From Clostridia bacterium (GTDB taxonomy: Bacteria; Bacillota_A; Clostridia; Christensenellales; Aristaeellaceae), in NCBI GenBank assembly GCA_017464225.1, contig JAFUDW010000124.1, positions 1-27,894 of the forward strand: a DNA stretch of 27,894 nt. The letters run 5' to 3'. The notes under the pieces are model-generated. The model was not told the origin of the DNA, did not search any database, and was given only the letters and a program-made list of their open reading frames with translations. Numbering within the stretch: position 1 is the stretch's first letter; the number at the start of each line of letters is the position of its first letter. Made by a program: the position numbers and the translations under genes. Below, piece by piece: positions 16,657 to 24,596 of this stretch.

Positions 16657-16732
16657 TGGCACCTCCGACCGGATTCGAACCGGTGTTTCAGCCTTGAGAG
16701 GGCCGCGTGCTAGGCCACTACACAACGGAGGC
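16657..16732 (-). tRNA. tRNA-Glu (anticodon CUC)
   Basis: 76 bases with an encoded CCA. The acceptor stem is GCCTCCG with CGGAGGT, the anticodon stem is CGGCC with GGCTG around the loop CTCTCAA (anticodon CUC, reads GAG), and the T arm ACCGG-TTCGAAT-CCGGT is standard. It lies three bases downstream of tRNA-Gln in the same transcript. Confidence 0.95.
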
Positions 16733-16735
16733 AGG

Positions 16736-16809
16736 TGGCTGGGGAACAAGGATATTAACCTTGACAATACGAGTCAGAGTCGTAGGTGCTGCCGTTACAC
16801 CATTCCTCA
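16736..16809 (-). tRNA. tRNA-Gln (anticodon CUG), unusual T-loop
   Basis: 74 bases with an encoded CCA. The acceptor stem TGAGGAA with TTCCCCA pairs except for an A-C mismatch at 3:70. The D arm is GTG-N9-CAC, and the anticodon stem TACGA with TCGTA encloses CTCTGAC (anticodon CUG, reads CAG). The T stem CAAGG with CCTTG is perfect but the loop is TTAATAT, where nearly all tRNAs have TTCRANN: C56 is A and A58 is T. The strong promoter directly upstream argues for expression. A TTG-anticodon tRNA-Gln elsewhere would make this one dispensable. Confidence 0.85.
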
Positions 16810-18496: not shown

Positions 18497-19030
18497 TTAG
18501 TGATCATCGTCGGCGTGTTCCTGAAGCCCGGCAACCAGATCATCCATCAAGCCCTGGGACGGAACTTTCACCCACCGCCGGGTGGTATCCCCGTCCGGGA
18601 AATTGTACCGCCACAGGTCGTAGGCTTCCTGGGTGATTTCGCCCTTCCGCAGTGCATTGGCAACCGCTTGCCATTCGTACAGCATCCGGTGAAGCTCGGC
18701 TGCCCGCTGATTTTCACGGAGATTGACCCGCAGGCAAACGTCACCCTCAGATTCCTCCACATGGAGACCATACCGATCCTCCAAGGTGAAAAGCGTGTGC
18801 ATGAGGCCGACGTAGGAATCAATATCAGGCACCGATATGGCATGGGGCGATACGCCAAAGATTTGTGCCATCTGTGCTGTCAGATCAGCCTTCGGATTCC
18901 GATCCTCGGATTCATACTGCGCCATGCGCACATCGGCGGAATTGGTCGGGAAGCCCAGAAGCTGCCCCAAATAACGCTGTGTCATCTTCATGCGCTTGCG
19001 GAAATGATGAATGCGCTCGCCAGTGGCCAT
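18497..19030 (-). CDS. XRE-family repressor of the mobile region
   Basis: A 177-residue protein with an N-terminal HTH_3 domain (GERIHHFRKRMKMTQRYLGQ, LLGFPTNSADVRMAQYESE, about residues 4-62). A helical C-terminal domain follows (about 70-165, with ENQRAAELHRMLYEWQAVAN). This build is common in regulators of clostridial integrative elements and resembles no peptidase-type LexA/CI repressor, so control by cleavage is unlikely. I start at 19030 with AAAGGGGA upstream; the longer frame to 19168 covers the promoter. It is divergent from the first excisionase gene, and repeated TTAG motifs in the shared region are likely operators. It probably keeps integrase genes silent. Confidence 0.82.
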   Translation of the reverse strand: MATGERIHHFRKRMKMTQRYLGQLLGFPTNSADVRMAQYESEDRNPKADLTAQMAQIFGVSPHAISVPDIDSYVGLMHTLFTLEDRYGLHVEESEGDVCLRVNLRENQRAAELHRMLYEWQAVANALRKGEITQEAYDLWRYNFPDGDTTRRWVKVPSQGLMDDLVAGLQEHADDDH

Positions 19031-19055
19031 AAGGAAGTCCCCTTTCAATGAGATA

Positions 19056-19089
19056 TGCTTAGTATAGCAGATTTGTTTAGGAGAATCAA
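19056..19089 (-). promoter_or_regulatory. Repressor promoter with two operator-like motifs
   Basis: On the minus strand TTGATT (19089-19084), 17 bases, TATACT (19066-19061). Two plus-strand motifs, TGCTTAGTATA (19056-19066) and TTGTTTAGGA (19073-19082), cover the -10 box and the spacer. The same pair recurs at the cassette B promoter. The second motif also overlaps the ribosome site of the first excisionase gene. I find no strong plus-strand promoter for that gene here. Confidence 0.65.
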
Positions 19090-19090
19090 T

Positions 19091-19330
19091 ATGAAATTGG
19101 AAAAATACGAAATAAAGCGGTATGGGAGCGCTTTTCTGACTGCGCCGGAGGCAGCCCGGCTCCTGCACATCTCAACTTCCCACGCTTATAAGGTCATTCA
19201 CCGGCTGAATCAGGAGCTGAAAGCCCAGGGCTTTCTCACCATCGCCGGGCGTATCAGCCAGCAATATCTTCTTCAGCGCACCATGGGAAAGGCACCGGAA
19301 AAGGAGGCGAAGCAGGATGGGAGTCTATAA
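19091..19330 (+). CDS. xis: Excisionase-like HTH protein (cassette A)
   Basis: A 79-residue protein with a MerR/HTH_17-like winged helix (FLTAPEAARLLHISTSHAYK, then VIHRLNQELKAQGFLTIAGR), the usual fold of small excisionases and integrase-linked DNA-binding proteins. Its core matches the cassette B protein (AYKVIHRLNQELKAQGFLTI against AYKIVHKLNEDLKAMGYLTI). I start at 19091 because AGGAG lies 7 bases upstream, rather than at the longer frame from 19055. It overlaps the integrase start by 14 bases, so the two are co-translated. It likely bends DNA at the attachment site and steers the integrase toward excision. Confidence 0.8.
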   Translation: MKLEKYEIKRYGSAFLTAPEAARLLHISTSHAYKVIHRLNQELKAQGFLTIAGRISQQYLLQRTMGKAPEKEAKQDGSL

Positions 19331-20387
19331 AGACAACAAGACAAATACGTGGCGAGTGATCTATCGCTACACCGATTGGACGGGAGAGCAGAAGCAGAGT
19401 TCCCGGCGGGGTTTTGCCAGCAAGCATGAAGCACAGGCATGGGAACGGGAGCAATTGAACAAGGTGACGGCAGATCTGGATATGTCCTTTGCCAGCTTCG
19501 TGGAGCATTATACCGAGGATTTGAAGACACGGCTGAAAGAAAACACCTGGAACACCAAGGATCATATCATCCGTACCAAACTGATTCCCTATTTCGGAAA
19601 GCTGAAGATGTGCGCCATCACACCGCAGATCGTCATGACCTGGCAAAATGAAATGTTGCGTTCCCGGGAAAACGACGGGAAGCCATACTCTCCCGTCTAT
19701 CTCCGCACCGTGCAAAATCAGCTCACCGCCATCTTTAACCATGCCATGAAGTATTATAACCTTCGGGAAAACCCCTGCCGCAAGGCCGGGCCGCTGGGCA
19801 AGAAGAAATCGAGGGAGATGCTGTTCTGGACGAAGGAAGAATACCTGAAATTTGCCGATGCCATGATGGATAAGCCCAAATCGTTCTATGCCTTTGAGCT
19901 TCTCTACTGGTGCGGTATGCGGGAAGGAGAACTGTTGGCCCTGACCCCTGCGGACTTCGATCTGGAGAAGGGCACCGTTACGATCAGCAAATCTTATCAG
20001 CGGATTCATGGAGAAGATATGATCACGACGCCGAAAACCGAGAAGAGCAACCGTACCATCACCATGCCGGATTTTCTGACGGAAGAAGTTGAGGAGTACA
20101 TTGAATCTCTGAACGGAATCAGGAAAAGGGATCGAATTTTCAACTTTACCAAGGACTATCTTCACCATGAGATGGATCGCGGAGCGAAGCAGGCGGGCGT
20201 CAAACGGATCAGGATTCACGACCTGCGCCATAGCGCAATCAGCCTCCTGATCGACATGGGCTTCAGCGCCATCGCCATTGCGGATCGCGTGGGGCACGAG
20301 AGTATCGACATTACGTATAATTACGCCCATCTCTTTCCTTCTAAACAGACGGAGATGGCAGCAAGACTGAATATGGAAAGGGGCTGA
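19317..20387 (+). CDS. int: Tyrosine recombinase/integrase (cassette A)
   Basis: A 356-residue site-specific integrase of the Tn916/Tn1549-like group. It has an N-terminal arm-binding domain (about 1-50, YKDNKTNTWRVIYRYTDWTG), a SAM-like core-binding domain (about 57-150) and the catalytic domain with Arg202 (MREGELLAL), Lys240 or Lys243, His301 and Arg304 (HDLRHS), His327 (GHE) and nucleophile Tyr336 (TYNYAHLF). All six catalytic residues are present, so it should be active. It starts inside the excisionase gene and is followed 4 bp later by the MobC-like gene. It aligns without gaps with the cassette B integrase. Confidence 0.95.
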   Translation: MGVYKDNKTNTWRVIYRYTDWTGEQKQSSRRGFASKHEAQAWEREQLNKVTADLDMSFASFVEHYTEDLKTRLKENTWNTKDHIIRTKLIPYFGKLKMCAITPQIVMTWQNEMLRSRENDGKPYSPVYLRTVQNQLTAIFNHAMKYYNLRENPCRKAGPLGKKKSREMLFWTKEEYLKFADAMMDKPKSFYAFELLYWCGMREGELLALTPADFDLEKGTVTISKSYQRIHGEDMITTPKTEKSNRTITMPDFLTEEVEEYIESLNGIRKRDRIFNFTKDYLHHEMDRGAKQAGVKRIRIHDLRHSAISLLIDMGFSAIAIADRVGHESIDITYNYAHLFPSKQTEMAARLNMERG

Positions 20388-20391
20388 AATA

Positions 20392-20718
20392 ATGTCCGCA
20401 AAAGCATTGGATGCGCATGGACGCTGGCGTAATATCACGGTGGCATTCCGGGTTTCACCGGAGGAAGACAGTCAGATTGAAACGCTGGTCAGGCTCACGG
20501 GAATGACAAAGCAGGATTACATCATGAGCAGGCTGCTGCACAGGGATGTGGTCGTAAAGGGGAACCCAAGGACATATAAAGCGCTGCGAGATACGATGGG
20601 AGATGTACTGACAGAATTGCGTCGGATTGAAGCCGGAGAAAAAACTGACCAGGAATTGCTTGAGTTGATTAGCACGATTGCTGCCATCATGGGCGGCCTG
20701 AAGGAGGAAAGAAAATGA
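20392..20718 (+). CDS. MobC-like ribbon-helix-helix protein
   Basis: A 108-residue protein whose first half has the ribbon-helix-helix pattern of MobC relaxosome accessory proteins (ITVAFRVSPEEDSQIETLVR, then LTGMTKQDYIMSRLLHRDVV). An acidic and helical second half follows. MobC proteins bind near oriT and help a relaxase open the DNA. Here no relaxase is present, so the protein would have to serve one from a helper element, or it has been re-used as a regulator. GAAAGGGG precedes the ATG. It lies 4 bp after the integrase and overlaps the TnpV start (ATGA). Confidence 0.65.
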   Translation: MSAKALDAHGRWRNITVAFRVSPEEDSQIETLVRLTGMTKQDYIMSRLLHRDVVVKGNPRTYKALRDTMGDVLTELRRIEAGEKTDQELLELISTIAAIMGGLKEERK

Positions 20719-21065
20719 ATATCATGTATCATCAGAATGGAGACTGTCTGCTCCCAGACATGGGTTTGAACGAGACAGACAAAACACCGCTGAACAAATA
20801 TGGCAGGATGCGGATGCGGTATTTGCAGGAATACCGTCCCGGTCTCTATACGAGGCTGCTTCTGTCCGGGAAACTGTATGGGCATCTGAAAGAAGCGCAA
20901 GAAGCTGCGCAGACCAGGATGGGAAAAATCGAAGCTGATATGGCAAAAGAGCAAGGTATCGACGAAGCATTGAAAGCCCAGGATCAAATGGCATGGGTTG
21001 GCGCAATGAATATGATCCGGCATCAAGCGGAGGAAATTGTTTTTCTGGAACTGATTTATAACTGA
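20715..21065 (+). CDS. tnpV: TnpV-family protein
   Basis: A 116-residue protein of the TnpV family, first named from the clostridial transposon Tn4451, with no known function. The family pattern is visible: NGDCLLPDMGLNE, then LNKYGRMRMRYLQEYRPGLY, TRLLLSGKLYGHLKEAQEAA and, near the end, QMAWVGAMNMIRHQAEEIVF. It is common in mobilizable elements of gut Clostridia. The ATG overlaps the stop of the MobC-like gene, so it is the last gene of cassette A; a strong terminator follows. Confidence 0.8.
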   Translation: MNIMYHQNGDCLLPDMGLNETDKTPLNKYGRMRMRYLQEYRPGLYTRLLLSGKLYGHLKEAQEAAQTRMGKIEADMAKEQGIDEALKAQDQMAWVGAMNMIRHQAEEIVFLELIYN

Positions 21066-21071
21066 TACCCA

Positions 21072-21107
21072 GCCCCATGGCAAACACCGCCATGGGGCAT
21101 TTTCTTT
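21072..21107 (+). terminator. Terminator of cassette A
   Basis: GCCCCATGGC (21072-21081) and GCCATGGGGC (21089-21098) pair perfectly over 10 bp, followed by ATTTTCTTT. It lies 6 bases after the tnpV stop. Confidence 0.92.
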
Positions 21108-21142
21108 GGAAACACAATGGGAAAACACTGTTGGGAAAATAG

Positions 21143-21232
21143 TGGCAAGCAATGCAAATCTGCAAGAATTTGCAAAACGCTTGTTGGCAGGCTCCGCCCC
21201 AAACCCCGTCTGCCAGCGCAAGCGCTGTGGTT
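21143..21232 (+). other. Conserved structured module, copy 1 (possible oriT or origin)
   Basis: This non-coding ~90 bp recurs in inverted orientation at 24417-24509. Shared blocks in order are TGGCAAGCAATGCAA (21143-21157, identical), a TTGCAAAA..GCTTGTTG block, GGCTCCGCCCC (21190-21200, identical), and a hairpin followed by GTGGTT. The hairpin is CAGCGC-AA-GCGCTG here and CAGAGC-TTAC-GCTCTG in the other copy, so paired bases changed together. A hairpin next to conserved arms is the layout of transfer or replication origins. The stretch 21066-21458 has no gene; besides this module it holds the cassette A terminator and the cassette B promoter. Confidence 0.65.
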
Positions 21233-21316
21233 ATAAATTTGTATCATAACGTCGCTCGGGATTTACATCCGCAAAAGCGCCATAAATATTTTTGTTTAGG
21301 AAAGCTTCACGGGCTA

Positions 21317-21345
21317 TTGACACAAGCATAAATGTTTAGTATAAT
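21317..21345 (+). promoter_or_regulatory. Consensus promoter of cassette B
   Basis: TTGACA (21317-21322), exactly 17 bases, TATAAT (21340-21345). The operator-like motifs TTGTTTAGGA (about 21293-21302) and TGTTTAGTATA (about 21334-21344, over the -10 box) match those at the repressor promoter. The leader to the excisionase gene is about 105 bases and has no clear structure. Confidence 0.88.
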
Positions 21346-21458
21346 GAAAGTACTGAAAGCGGAGAAATTTTCAGGGGGAAGGAGATGCCAGCATAGAGGA
21401 AAAGAACGAGAGATAAACGCCAAGCAGCCGATACCAATAAGCCAAAGAGGAGAGCACT

Positions 21459-21683
21459 ATGAAGGAACAAACATTCATCACAGTAGCAGAGGTAGCGGAG
21501 ATTATGGGGATATCCAAATCCTATGCCTACAAAATCGTACACAAGCTCAACGAAGACCTGAAAGCCATGGGTTATCTGACCATCGCGGGAAGGGTCAACC
21601 GGGGATACTTCCTGGAAAAGACCTGCTACTCGCCCAGCAGAAGCCCGCAGCTTTCCGCAATACCAGGAGGACAGATCGCTTAA
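21459..21683 (+). CDS. xis: Excisionase-like HTH protein (cassette B)
   Basis: A 74-residue protein with an HTH_17/MerR-like fold (FITVAEVAEIMGISKSYAYK, then IVHKLNEDLKAMGYLTIAGR), homologous to the cassette A protein through that core and different at both ends. GAGGAG lies 7-8 bases before the ATG. Its stop overlaps the integrase ATG (TAATG), so excisionase and integrase are made together. The role in excision is inferred from family and position; it could also be the activator of the integrase operon. Confidence 0.8.
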   Translation: MKEQTFITVAEVAEIMGISKSYAYKIVHKLNEDLKAMGYLTIAGRVNRGYFLEKTCYSPSRSPQLSAIPGGQIA

Positions 21684-22825
21684 TGCCGGTTTACAAGGAG
21701 GAAAAAACGAATACGTGGCGGGTGATCTACCGCTACATCGATTGGAAGGGAGAGCGAAAGCAGACTTCAAAGCGAGGATTTGTCACCAAGAGGGAGGCCC
21801 TTGCCTGGGAGAGGGAGCAGCTGAACAAGGTGGCAGCCGATGTGGATATGACCTTTGCCAGCTTCATCGACAGATATACGGAAGACATGAAAACCCGCCT
21901 GAAGGAGAACACCTGGAACACCAAGGAGCATATCATCCGAACCAAGCTGACGCCATACTTTGGAAAGCTCAAGCTCAGCAGCATTACACCCCAGCAAATT
22001 ATCACCTGGCAGAATGAGCTGCTGAATTATCGGGATGCGCAGGGGCAGGCGTATTCCCCGGTATATCTGCGAACGATCCACACACAACTCAGCGCTATCT
22101 TCAACCATGCGGTCCGGTACTATAAATTACGGGAAAATCCCTGCCAGAAGGCCGGAACCATGGGAAAGAAGAAAGCGCGGGAAATGCTGTTCTGGACAAA
22201 GGAGGAGTACCTCCAATTCGCAAAAGCGATCCAGGATAAACCCATGGCATACCATGCCTTCCAGATGCTGTACTGGTGCGGTATCCGGGAGGGAGAATTG
22301 TTGGCGCTGACGCCCGCGGACTTCGACTTCACCAGAGATACGGTGACCATCAGCAAATCTTATCACCGGCTGAACGGAAAAGACATCATTACGGATCCCA
22401 AGACTGAAAAGAGCAATCGAACCATCACCATGCCGGATTTCCTGGCGGCGGAGATGCAGGGATATATTGGTTCCCTGTACGGGATTCAATCAGATGACAG
22501 AATATTCCCGTTCACCAGCAGCTTCCTCCACCACGAAATGAAGCGGGGATGCAAGATTTCCGGTGTCAAAAAGATCCGGGTGCACGACCTTCGTCACTCG
22601 GCAATCTCCCTGCTGATCGACATGGGCTTCTCCCCGCTGGCCATTGCGGATCGCGTCGGACACGAAGCCATAGAGATCACCTACAATTACGCCCACCTGT
22701 TCCCTTCCAAACAGCAGGATATGGCCAAGCAGCTGAGCCAGGCCATGCAGGATACGCCGGACCCGCCGGACAACCCACCGTATGCACCACAACTGACCCT
22801 GATCAAAAACGACAGCGCCGCATGA
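21683..22825 (+). CDS. int: Tyrosine recombinase/integrase (cassette B)
   Basis: A 380-residue integrase with the same three domains and catalytic residues as cassette A: Arg202 (IREGELLAL), Lys240/243, His301 and Arg304 (HDLRHS), His327 and Tyr336. Alignment by eye over 350 residues has no gaps and 255 identities (73%). The differences cluster at 111-120, 181-190 and 251-280, while blocks such as 71-80, 241-250 and 301-310 are identical. It carries an extra proline-rich C-terminal tail of about 25 residues. I start at the ATG that overlaps the excisionase stop; the frame is open far upstream but that part lies over the excisionase gene. parM follows after 19 bp. Confidence 0.95.
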   Translation: MPVYKEEKTNTWRVIYRYIDWKGERKQTSKRGFVTKREALAWEREQLNKVAADVDMTFASFIDRYTEDMKTRLKENTWNTKEHIIRTKLTPYFGKLKLSSITPQQIITWQNELLNYRDAQGQAYSPVYLRTIHTQLSAIFNHAVRYYKLRENPCQKAGTMGKKKAREMLFWTKEEYLQFAKAIQDKPMAYHAFQMLYWCGIREGELLALTPADFDFTRDTVTISKSYHRLNGKDIITDPKTEKSNRTITMPDFLAAEMQGYIGSLYGIQSDDRIFPFTSSFLHHEMKRGCKISGVKKIRVHDLRHSAISLLIDMGFSPLAIADRVGHEAIEITYNYAHLFPSKQQDMAKQLSQAMQDTPDPPDNPPYAPQLTLIKNDSAA

Positions 22826-22844
22826 GCGGCAGAAAGAGAGGATT

Positions 22845-23786
22845 ATGCTTACCAACACCAACCCCATCACCAAGAATCCCACCGTGGTCATCGGAGTCGA
22901 TGCCGGCTATGGGAACATCAAGACGGCCAACACCTGCTTCCCGGCAGGTGTGGTCGCCTATGAAAAAGAACCGATCTTCGCCGGGAGCGTGCTGATCTAC
23001 AACGGCACGTACTACAGCATCGGCGAAGGCCATAAGGAATTCATCCCGGAAAAGATCATCGATCAGGATTACTACATCCTGACCCTGGCCGGTATCGTCC
23101 GGGAACTGGAAAAAGCGAATATGCCAACGGCGGATGTGCACCTGGCCGTAGGACTGCCCCTGACCTGGGTATCGGAACAGAAGGAACGCTTCAAAAAGTA
23201 TCTGATGCAGAAGAAGGAAGTGAAGGTTCAGTACCGGGATATGACCTATGCCATCCGCATCGTCGGCGTGGATGTGTTCCCGCAGGGCTTCGCCGCCATC
23301 GCAGAGAGGCTCCAAGAGTTCACGGGGACGACCATGCTGTGCGATATCGGCAATGGCACCATGAACATCATGACCATCAACGACGGGAAGCCTGACCCGC
23401 AGAAATGCTTCACGGAGAAATACGGTACCTACCAGTGCATGATAGCCGTGCGGGAACAGCTGATGCGGAAATTCGGCACTGCCATCGGTGATCGCCTGAT
23501 TGAGCGGGTGCTGTGTTACGGAACAGATGATATCGGCGAAAAGTATCTGACCGTGATTCAGGAAACTGCCAGGCAGTATGTGGCCGGGATCATGCGCAGG
23601 CTGCGGGAGCACGAATACAACCCGGAATTGATGAAGCTGTATGTCGTCGGAGGAGGAGGCTGCTTGATCCGGCACTTTGGGACATACGATCCCAACCGGG
23701 TAACGATCAATGACGATATTTGTGCCACGGCCAAGGGATACGAATTTCTGGCCAGCCTCCGGCTGAAAAAGGCGGCAGTAGCATGA
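22845..23786 (+). CDS. parM: ParM-like actin-family plasmid segregation ATPase
   Basis: A 313-residue actin-fold protein of the ParM/Alp group, which polymerises with ATP and pushes plasmid copies apart. Phosphate loop 1 is VIGVDAGYGNIKTAN near residue 15, phosphate loop 2 is LCDIGNGTMNIM near 167, and the adenosine motif is VVGGGGCLI near 265. Length and motifs fit the family, with no truncation. It is read in the same direction as the integrase, and its stop overlaps the start of a small RHH protein (ATGA) as in parMR operons. A segregation motor on an integrated element implies that the excised circle is kept as a low-copy replicon for some time, an inference. Confidence 0.88.
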   Translation: MLTNTNPITKNPTVVIGVDAGYGNIKTANTCFPAGVVAYEKEPIFAGSVLIYNGTYYSIGEGHKEFIPEKIIDQDYYILTLAGIVRELEKANMPTADVHLAVGLPLTWVSEQKERFKKYLMQKKEVKVQYRDMTYAIRIVGVDVFPQGFAAIAERLQEFTGTTMLCDIGNGTMNIMTINDGKPDPQKCFTEKYGTYQCMIAVREQLMRKFGTAIGDRLIERVLCYGTDDIGEKYLTVIQETARQYVAGIMRRLREHEYNPELMKLYVVGGGGCLIRHFGTYDPNRVTINDDICATAKGYEFLASLRLKKAAVA

Positions 23787-24151
23787 GCAAGAAAGAAAAC
23801 CTGTTTACCACCACCCTGCGGCTGAACCTGGATAATGCGCAGGACATGGAAGCATGGAACAATCTGATGAGCGCAGATAGCAGCCAGCCAGATTACAGCT
23901 CATACAGCCGAACGATTGTCACCGCCATCAACGATCACTTCTCCCAGCTGGATCAGCCGGATCGGGAAGAATGGATGCCGGTTCTGCTGCAAAAGATACA
24001 GGAAACTGTTCGGGAAACGATCATCTGCACCATGAAAGAGATCGCGGTCACGACAGCACCGCCGGTATCAAAAGATGAAGCCCAAAGGGACGCTGCTGAG
24101 CCGCTCAACGAAACAGAAGCGAGAATCGAAGCCTTCCTGGACTGCTTTTGA
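23783..24151 (+). CDS. parR: ParR-like centromere-binding protein
   Basis: A 122-residue protein whose N-terminus fits a ribbon-helix-helix fold: strand TTTLRLNL, helix AQDMEAWNNLMSA, helix SSYSRTIVTAINDHFSQLD. ParR proteins bind repeated DNA at the centromere with this domain and catch the ParM filament end with their C-terminus; here the last residues (ETEARIEAFLDCF) form a short acidic helix that could do so. The call rests mainly on size, fold and the overlap with parM, since ParR sequences diverge strongly. I start at the ATG that overlaps the parM stop. Octamer repeats directly downstream would be its natural target. Confidence 0.62.
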   Translation: MSKKENLFTTTLRLNLDNAQDMEAWNNLMSADSSQPDYSSYSRTIVTAINDHFSQLDQPDREEWMPVLLQKIQETVRETIICTMKEIAVTTAPPVSKDEAQRDAAEPLNETEARIEAFLDCF

Positions 24152-24166
24152 GGGGTGCACCAAAAG

Positions 24167-24337
24167 TGGTATTACGACGAACAGAAAAATGATACCAAGT
24201 GTGATACCAGACCATGATGTGACGAACCAGAGGCGAAATTCTGGTGATTACGTTAAGAAGCTAAATTTTAAAAATCACCAGTAACAAAATCAATACCAAA
24301 AGACCACCAAACCCCTGCACCTGAAAAGTTGGTATCA
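24167..24337. repeat. Cluster of ATACCA octamers, candidate parC centromere
   Basis: Five copies of (T/C)(G/A)ATACCA or close: 24190-24197, 24202-24209 and 24291-24298 on plus, and TGGTATTA (24167-24174) and TGGTATCA (24330-24337) as reverse copies. A perfect 9-bp inverted pair CTGGTGATT (24241-24249) / AATCACCAG (24273-24281) and two GACGAAC copies (24177-24183, 24221-24227) lie between them. They start 15 bases after the parR stop. Integrase arm sites are the alternative. Confidence 0.6.
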
Positions 24338-24371
24338 CATGCCAACCAACAGGCGCAGGGGCCTTCATTAT
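24312..24371 (+). terminator. Terminator of cassette B
   Basis: CCCCTGCACCTG (24312-24323) pairs with CAGGCGCAGGGG (24350-24361), 12 positions with one G-T. The loop contains a smaller stem TTGGTAT..ATGCCAA. CCTTCATTATTTTT follows. It ends the parMR transcript about 160 bases after the parR stop. Confidence 0.7.
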
Positions 24372-24416
24372 TTTTCAGCGAAAGCAGAAACGGGGTAAGT
24401 CGCAGACATACCCCAC

Positions 24417-24509
24417 AACCACAGAGCGTAAGCTCTGGTTTTCAGGGGCTTGGGGGCGGAGCCCTCAACAAGCTTTTTGCAATTTTTATAACAATTGCAT
24501 TGCTTGCCA
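24417..24509 (-). other. Conserved structured module, copy 2 (inverted; possible oriT or origin)
   Basis: Read on the minus strand it repeats the layout of 21143-21232: TGGCAAGCAATGCAA (24509-24495), the TTGCAAAA.GCTTGTTG block, GGCTCCGCCCC (24463-24453), then the hairpin CAGAGC-TTAC-GCTCTG (24437-24422) and GTGGTT. Spacing is within a few bases of copy 1. GGGGTATGTCTGCGACTTAC follows on the same strand. The stretch 24152-24596 has no gene and holds the repeats, a terminator, this module and a palindrome. Confidence 0.65.
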
Positions 24510-24513
24510 ATAT

Positions 24514-24532
24514 GCAAAAGTGGGACTTTTGC
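24514..24532. repeat. Perfect inverted repeat at the right edge of the mobile region
   Basis: GCAAAAGT-GGG-ACTTTTGC, 8 bp arms around three bases, immediately outside the second conserved module and 65 bases before the lysR stop. It could be part of a recombinase core site or a short terminator for lysR. Confidence 0.6.
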
Positions 24533-24596
24533 CCTGCTTGCTACAATATGTTTGACCATGAGATACTCCGTCTATATTTACGGCGCGACATTCATG

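Follow-up and report, generated by a model that had tools for sequence, protein, structure and literature searches.

Two inverted copies, A and B, of a structured module lie in the 27,894-nucleotide stretch of Clostridia bacterium contig JAFUDW010000124.1 analyzed here (hereafter the window), and this module is almost certainly an origin of transfer (oriT). Judged from sequence, A and B are very probably (about 0.9) MOBP oriTs of the Tn1549/pRJ6 kind on an integrative mobilizable element (IME) without a relaxase gene, with nicking, helper use and excision as predicted properties. The window element is probably helper-dependent, riding with other mobile elements, since it encodes integrases and NikA-like and ParM-like proteins and no relaxase was found. 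Related loci and genomes are designated below by our L and G numbers.

Two Inverted Copies with a Predicted nic Site

The copies and their predicted nic sites are as follows.

21137..21240, + strand: putative oriT copy A; hairpin CAGCGC-AA-GCGCTG, "alpha" type; exact pattern match; 86.2 bits with covariance model R1, whose training set includes this sequence
24412..24515, − strand: putative oriT copy B; hairpin CAGAGC-TTAC-GCTCTG, "beta"-like; exact pattern match; 106.5 bits with R1, likewise trained on it
21145..21146, − strand: predicted nic of copy A, ..GCATTGCTTG|CCA.., deduced from the nic strings of Tn1549 and pRJ6
24506..24507, + strand: predicted nic of copy B, ..GCATTGCTTG|CCA.., string at 24497, deduced likewise
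24535..24541, + strand: a further nic-like unit, TGCTTG|C, placed tandemly with B; the similarity to locus L237 fades just past it (the blastn match stops at 24548)

The two inverted copies, and the strings that a previous sequence-only reading had quoted from them, are present. The motif pattern, composed after both copies had been seen and drawn from six related sequences including A and B, matches twice in the window and never in 100 shuffles. Aligned without gaps, A and B score 33, and none of 500 mononucleotide shuffles of B scores above 12. In both, an inverted repeat CAAGC...GCTTG, with the predicted nic site TGCTTG|CC at its outer base, is followed by a small GC hairpin, then by an AA(A/G)CCCC string and by a variable hairpin. 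The paired stem change noted earlier between CAGCGC/GCGCTG (21214-21227, copy A) and CAGAGC/GCTCTG (24437-24422, minus strand, copy B) is real in both hairpins; a change at one pair between just two copies is little proof of selection. Folded as single-stranded DNA, copy A is unremarkable (z −1.2) and copy B special (z −3.0). An origin of the two copies by recent duplication was considered and is not supported, as A and B are as similar within elements as between them (mean identity 0.67 in both cases); the means are 0.71 for A-A, a small margin, and 0.78 for B-B.

The nic strings tabulated in PMC7755788 are RYGCTTG|C for Tn1549, TGCTTG|CCA for pRJ6, and CTTG|CA for pRS01. The complements of A and B read GCATTGCTTG|CCA, which agrees exactly with the pRJ6 string and partially with that of Tn1549, and in both copies the predicted nic string stands at the base of the inverted repeat, as it does in the Tn1549/pRJ6 oriT. 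Because the 5′ arm of the motif, TGGCAAGCA, is the reverse complement of TGCTTGCCA, the strand predicted to be nicked is the complement of the one drawn in the sequence-only reading. From this predicted polarity, the relaxase gene of motif-bearing relatives would enter the recipient last. Of 111 unique pattern copies, 102 have GCAAGC in the 130 nt that precede them, compared with 96 of 2,000 random windows. We also considered a nic at the TCCTGCG of the downstream loop, by comparison with the IncP/IncI-type TATCCTG|C. It was rejected because TCCTGCG is, by eye, absent from copy A and from the Tn1549-like class, whereas the upstream GCAAGC (complement GCTTGC) is found in those 102 of 111 copies and fits the tabulated strings.

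The enterococcal plasmid pMG2200 (L245), whose record is typed MOBP, has a weak R1 match (1085-1211, 24.6 bits, E 6.5e-4) directly before mobC and the relaxase gene, ending at the start of mobC; its complement strand reads ATGCTTG|C, in agreement with the RYGCTTG|C of the Tn1549 oriT. The equivalent region of Monoglobus L246 gives a weaker match (15 bits, E 0.14). The window copies differ from the Tn1549/pRJ6 oriT, as represented in PMC7755788, which gives the 28-bp Tn1549 oriT as table coordinates, by an extra variable hairpin and by their location on an element without a relaxase. Most of our class I copies also lie past the 3′ end of the relaxase gene instead of before mobC.

A Motif Family with Selected Dyad Symmetry

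The pattern matches at least 119 stretches in GTDB species genomes. According to the record titles, almost all carriers are Clostridia or metagenome-assembled genomes (MAGs) of unplaced Clostridiales; the few others are Holdemania, Amedibacillus, Paenibacillus, one Bacteroidota MAG, and two Bdellovibrionaceae MAGs, and some of these non-clostridial matches may be due to chance or contamination. Motif copies were also present on two faecal scaffolds filed as phage and on two Subdoligranulum plasmid records, which were examined further among the 20 seen of the 31 records from the plasmid search. Among viral contigs, the first exact pattern, GCTTGTTGNNNGGCTCCGCCCC, had no match and a loosened pattern had one. 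The conserved layout consists of GCAAGC, a variable hairpin, GCTTGTTG, a small GC hairpin, AA(A/G)CCC, and a second variable hairpin.

Covariation was tested on a 28-row alignment for 18 of the 22 pairs proposed by RNAalifold, one helix of four pairs being left out. In this alignment 97.8% of the cells are paired. None of 500 shuffles reached the observed covariation score, 0.157; both sides change at five pairs, a number reached by 5 of 500 shuffles, with some inflation from sequence kinship. Inverted repeats with compensating changes are thus conserved across the family. The sequence-only reading had taken covariation as proof of a selected fold. What the alignment shows is selected dyad symmetry in DNA, which does not necessarily imply an RNA fold.

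A cis-acting RNA or a transcription terminator at the 3′ end of mobilization genes would also have hairpins and GC-rich stems, and the copies often lie past the 3′ end of a gene. In addition, the core of copy B contains a terminator-like site on the plus strand (24450-24468), in the direction of the ALP-orf5 genes that precede it. Such sites are frequent in the region (8 found, 4.8 expected), none lies over copy A, and a separate one is found upstream of A at 21072-21098. At the Rfam gathering score the window contains two tRNAs only, with no match for the module, and a laxer search of the module region gave seven matches, none of them at the gathering score. Furthermore, related matches precede nikA/mobC operons on the other relative strand, and the nic string is conserved. 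We therefore consider the RNA or terminator explanation very improbable, and the structured RNA proposed earlier finds little support.

Linkage to MOBP Relaxases

The covariance model R1 was built from 43 copies chosen by pattern. We searched 40 genomes, picked from those behind the 119 pattern loci, for the PF03432 relaxase domain, the pattern, and the PF21983 accessory protein, the PF03432 and PF21983 counts being taken among the matches listed. These genomes contributed 50 pattern copies in 48 regions, in which relaxases were called with a purpose-built relaxase hidden Markov model (HMM). R1 gave 53 matches there, corresponding to the 50 known copies and three partners (L137, L138, and L149). 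In 28 of the 48 regions, the motif has a relaxase open reading frame (ORF) no farther than 400 bp away. In 27 of these it follows the 3′ end of the relaxase gene and is on the opposite strand, with a spacing of exactly 64 bp in 21 of them; in the remaining one, L154, the motif lies on the same strand before nikA and the relaxase gene. Among the 20 regions without a near relaxase, L151 ended 57 bases past the motif, and its longer version, L241, has none near either.

A second set comprised 40 relaxase regions of the same genomes without the exact pattern, hand-picked among the matches listed. In this set R1 matched 6-148 bp past the relaxase 3′ end in 13 regions and 276-497 bp before the relaxase start in 15, where the operons carry a NikA/MobC-like gene, many matches of this second group being weak (E up to 0.45). 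A less biased test used 297 genomes from a single order, that of G040, including the known motif carriers G040 and G027. At E up to 1e-3, R1 matched 67 times in 27 genomes, and PF03432 was found in 65 genomes. For 30 of the 67 matches, a relaxase domain is found no more than 1.5 kb away. Of these matches, 18 are 3′ on the opposite strand and 12 are 5′ on the same strand, with none in the other two of the four possible geometries; by rough arithmetic, less than one near-relaxase match is expected by chance. A relaxase is present in 21 of the 27 motif genomes, compared with 44 of the 270 others. Intergenic placement beside a relaxase and/or a ribbon-helix-helix (RHH) accessory gene, one feature of such an oriT in relaxase-bearing elements, was thus found in 28 of 48, 28 of 40, and 30 of 67 cases in the three sets. 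Many matches are beside relaxase genes and not only at random sites, their geometries are fixed, and the stem carries a MOBP-type nic string, which supports the earlier proposal of an oriT recognized by a helper relaxase.

Several observations weigh against this assignment. The window copies carry a T at the R position of RYGCTTG|C. The relaxase of Tn1549 acts in cis (PMC6856555), which would limit mobilization in trans. The 28 linked regions are highly redundant: clustering at 90% protein identity reduces their relaxases to 9 clusters, and a single cluster accounts for 19 regions, all with the 64-bp spacing. R1 was trained on pattern-selected copies, and the Fisher test on the 297 genomes (p 8e-11) takes no account of shared ancestry. 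Of the pattern-free relaxase regions, 12 of 40 showed no consistent R1 placement (seven without a match, four with a match elsewhere, and one in which no relaxase ORF was found), and 37 of the 67 order-wide matches are away from any relaxase. Two of these 37 are the G040 copies of the near-copy of the window element; some of the others may be satellites and some may be noise at E near 1e-3. Finally, no attachment site or flanking direct repeat was found for the window element, whose left border is not fixed.

The module might instead, or in addition to an oriT function, be the site where replication of the excised circle starts, by a rolling-circle or another mode. Relaxase-family enzymes can also initiate rolling-circle replication, and the ParM-like gene suggests a partitioned circle. 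Nevertheless, none of the ten window ORFs scanned belongs to a Rep family and the linkage is to PF03432 relaxases, which makes this explanation improbable; replication may still be a second function of an oriT.

Coupling proteins (PF02534) were searched for in ten genomes. Their distance to the relaxase is about 25 kb for L226 and L143 and 27-37 kb for four other relaxases (G013, G020 twice, and G005); no coupling protein was found in four of the ten genomes, among them G040. The genomes with a coupling protein near a relaxase are candidates for carrying helper integrative and conjugative elements (ICEs). Three contigs (G191:C1, G165:C1, and G094:C1) have two inverted R1 matches about 11.6 kb apart, one of them just upstream of a relaxase.

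Gene Content and Relatives of the Window Element

The element is organized in the order helix-turn-helix (HTH) gene, xis, int, nikA-like, tnpV, oriT A, a second xis-int pair, the ParM-like gene, orf5, and oriT B.

18497..19168, − strand: HTH repressor-like gene, RstR-like below the cut-off; probable element regulator, divergent from xis1
19055..19330, + strand: xis1, putative excisionase-like small HTH protein, from an HTH_23 match below the cut-off and its position directly before int1
19317..20387, + strand: int1, tyrosine integrase (PF00589, PF14659, PF14657)
20392..20718, + strand: NikA-like relaxosome accessory protein (PF21983, E 5.9e-12, over the cut-off)
20715..21065, + strand: TnpV (PF14198, E 4.4e-39)
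21459..21683, + strand: xis2, excisionase-like protein (HTH_17 below the cut-off)
21683..22825, + strand: int2, tyrosine integrase by Pfam, 73% identical to int1
22845..23786, + strand: ParM/actin-like protein (ALP; PF17989, PF21522; Cbc-ParM and ALP12 chains)
23783..24151, + strand: orf5, small conserved protein after ALP, conserved in L237, L241, L105, and L243

Its own recombination enzymes, a feature of IMEs, are two tyrosine integrases recognized by Pfam and two excisionases recognized by sub-threshold HTH matches and position. Pfam detected no relaxase or mating-pair gene in ten window ORFs, the element borders being inexact, and the relaxase HMM found no relaxase among the stop-to-stop ORFs of at least 60 aa in the window. 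The protein described earlier as MobC-like is an accessory protein encoded nearby, of the NikA-like family PF21983. No Pfam family matched orf5 at E 0.001, and a ParR-like role can only be guessed from its position. Similar HTH ORFs adjoin xis in L241, L142, and L170. The HTH gene of the window could instead be chromosomal, since it matches G027 DNA together with guaA; the G027 contig ends there. An insertion at the guaA 3′ end is not supported: the search for a repeat of that end was negative, though the guaA-HTH DNA recurs in G027.

According to the proposed mechanism, Int and Xis would excise the element as a circle, and its NikA-like protein and that of the helper would bind the oriT. A MOBP relaxase from a co-resident ICE or IME would then nick the oriT, and the nicked strand would leave through the type IV secretion system of the helper before the circle re-integrates.

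L237, in genome G040, is a near-copy of the window element with the same gene order and both oriT copies. Its right flank differs, with TetR and radical-SAM genes where the window has LysR, and this element type therefore occupies two different chromosomal sites (two places only, L237 being a MAG contig). G040 also holds a relaxase of the alpha group defined below (L213). L241 has an uninterrupted single-cassette order (HTH, xis, int, nikA, tnpV, ALP, orf5, motif) in a compact relaxase-less element without a second integrase (L241:9501-13851), which is likely the basic form. The order in L142 is HTH, xis, int, nikA, tnpV, nikA, relaxase, motif, and L241 has ALP-orf5 at the position of this relaxase. 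Compared with L241, the window has motif A and the second xis-int pair between tnpV and ALP. We read the window element, on these comparisons, as a relaxase-less member of the L241/L142 lineage with an inserted oriT-xis-int unit. The two inverted copies had been described as ending two cassettes; by comparison with L241, these look like a single element in which copy A is internal. The motif is also present in HTH-xis-int-nikA elements at L170, L176, L182, and L002, in none of which a relaxase was found nearby.

Two more explanations bear on this organization. The location of B at the right border of the shared element, and of paired copies close to one terminus of elements with a serine recombinase, as in L235, would fit terminal repeats used for attachment or for integrase arm binding. 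However, the motif adjoins the relaxases of elements with different recombinases or with none seen nearby, copy A is internal, and no direct repeat marks A or B as an attachment site, so that this is extremely improbable. Alternatively, the oriT copies could be relics of an element whose former relaxase was lost, as its backbone is common to the relaxase-bearing L142. Such decay is unlikely: the ORFs in the list above are open, L237 retains both oriTs in the same layout with proteins 63-96% identical to those of the window, convergent pairs recur in other elements, and the hairpins stay paired while their sequence changes. All these alternatives overlap with the helper-dependent IME and with one another, and their odds need not sum to one.

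TGATACC/GGTATCA repeats, nine in the whole window, are found near copy A (21063) and between orf5 and copy B (24190, 24202, and 24331); they are possible integrase arm or partition sites. Near-identical 14-mers (A..TTTGTTTAGGA, two mismatches) precede xis1 (19069) and xis2 (21288), the latter adjoining a sigma-70 promoter-like site (12 of 12) at 21317-21345. A partition-like ATPase gene stands near the oriT, where L142 has its relaxase, both in the window (22845-24151, actin-like) and in L002 (12271-13074, AAA_25). In L002, a Subdoligranulum plasmid record, two tet(W) genes are annotated, one of them about 4 kb away from the motif-bearing element.

Convergent oriT Pairs and Hairpin Types

Convergent pairs are present in the window, L237, L238, L239, L235, L067, L031, and L236, and four of these elements (L235, L238, L067, and L031) have a large serine recombinase on the contig. 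L235:5645-9665 and L238:11092-14353 each correspond to an element of about 4 kb that has genes for a large serine recombinase and an HTH protein, with the convergent oriT pair at one end; that of L235 is located between a purL-like gene and a DUF218 gene.

Hairpins were typed in six pairs, not all independent (the window, L237, L238, L239, L235, and L067, leaving out L031 and L236), against the oriTs of an alpha relaxase group (L213/L218/L258/L120) and a beta group (L143/L226). The 3′ hairpin and tail of copy A are alpha-like in all six (mean identity 0.84-0.93, vs 0.69-0.75 with beta). Those of copy B are closer to beta in five of six (0.71-0.87, vs 0.60-0.70 with alpha), and those of L237 are closer to neither (beta 0.69, alpha 0.70). 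A third set of relaxase oriTs (L003, L094, L150, and L142) is closest to the B copies of L067 and L237 (0.75 each). Most A copies look hybrid, because their 5′ half, except in L235 and L153, is closer to beta or undecided and their 3′ hairpin is alpha. In a quick FastTree phylogeny, supports not being taken into account, the alpha relaxases group together and the two beta relaxases are neighboring branches that do not form a clade. In the motif tree, A and B copies are mostly apart, and only the A copy of L235 falls with alpha relaxase oriTs.

An alpha-type A combined with a B nearer to beta suggests, from sequence comparison, two helpers. We tentatively propose, as a possibility somewhat less probable than its contrary, that a convergent alpha and beta-like oriT pair, as typed in six elements with tyrosine or serine recombinases, lets either of two different helpers move the element; the NikA-like protein would further widen the choice. 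As the predicted nic sites face outward on opposite strands, two helpers would export opposite strands.

Parallels with Known Systems

Mobilization by a relaxase in trans through oriT mimicry is described for pWBG749-type staphylococcal plasmids. In the portion of PMC8136818 consulted, their oriT subtypes differ in one inverted repeat, some plasmids carry two to three mimics, most often of different subtypes, and a plasmid-borne RHH gene lets the helper move a foreign subtype. The window element is similar in its oriT types differing by one repeat, its two oriTs, and its accessory gene; it differs in that integrated chromosomal elements of Clostridia carry the oriTs as convergent pairs. IMEs using an oriT alone or an oriT plus an accessory factor are among the classes listed in PMC5704250, and the relevant passages of PMC11389934 name relaxase-less IMEs iOriT and note mobilizable plasmids with multiple oriTs. 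As described in these passages, MGIVflInd1, MTnSag1, and iOriT elements likewise combine their own recombination enzymes with the relaxase and secretion system of a helper. They belong to Gammaproteobacteria with a MobH helper or, for MTnSag1, rely on Tn916, whereas the window element is clostridial and MOBP-type with two oriTs. IME_Rho_tet represents gut Bacillota IMEs with MobC and a relaxase (PMC12904643); unlike the window element, it has its own relaxase and a serine recombinase, and the term oriT is absent from the main text of that article.

A literature search, judged by titles and the openings of abstracts and mostly not covering subscription papers, yielded no paper on the motif or on paired oriTs in clostridial IMEs. 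The class of mechanism is already known; the novelty seems to lie in the clostridial motif family and its model, and in convergent pairs of mixed type carried by integrated elements. OriT sites are difficult to recognize, and annotation readily overlooks elements that have no relaxase. With a model that finds oriTs of this class throughout Clostridia, one can tell which small islands may move and by which relaxase group, so that which helper moves which hitchhiker becomes testable in gut and rumen bacteria. Paired, type-mixed oriTs would be the integrated clostridial counterpart of the multi-oriT staphylococcal plasmids.

Two minor observations concern the surroundings of the motif. In L004, a faecal scaffold filed as phage, it lies by a relaxase-like sequence with a Cas3-like helicase alongside and a Cas5 gene about 5 kb away. 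In the window, tRNA-Glu and tRNA-Gln genes (16657-16809) are located upstream of guaA.

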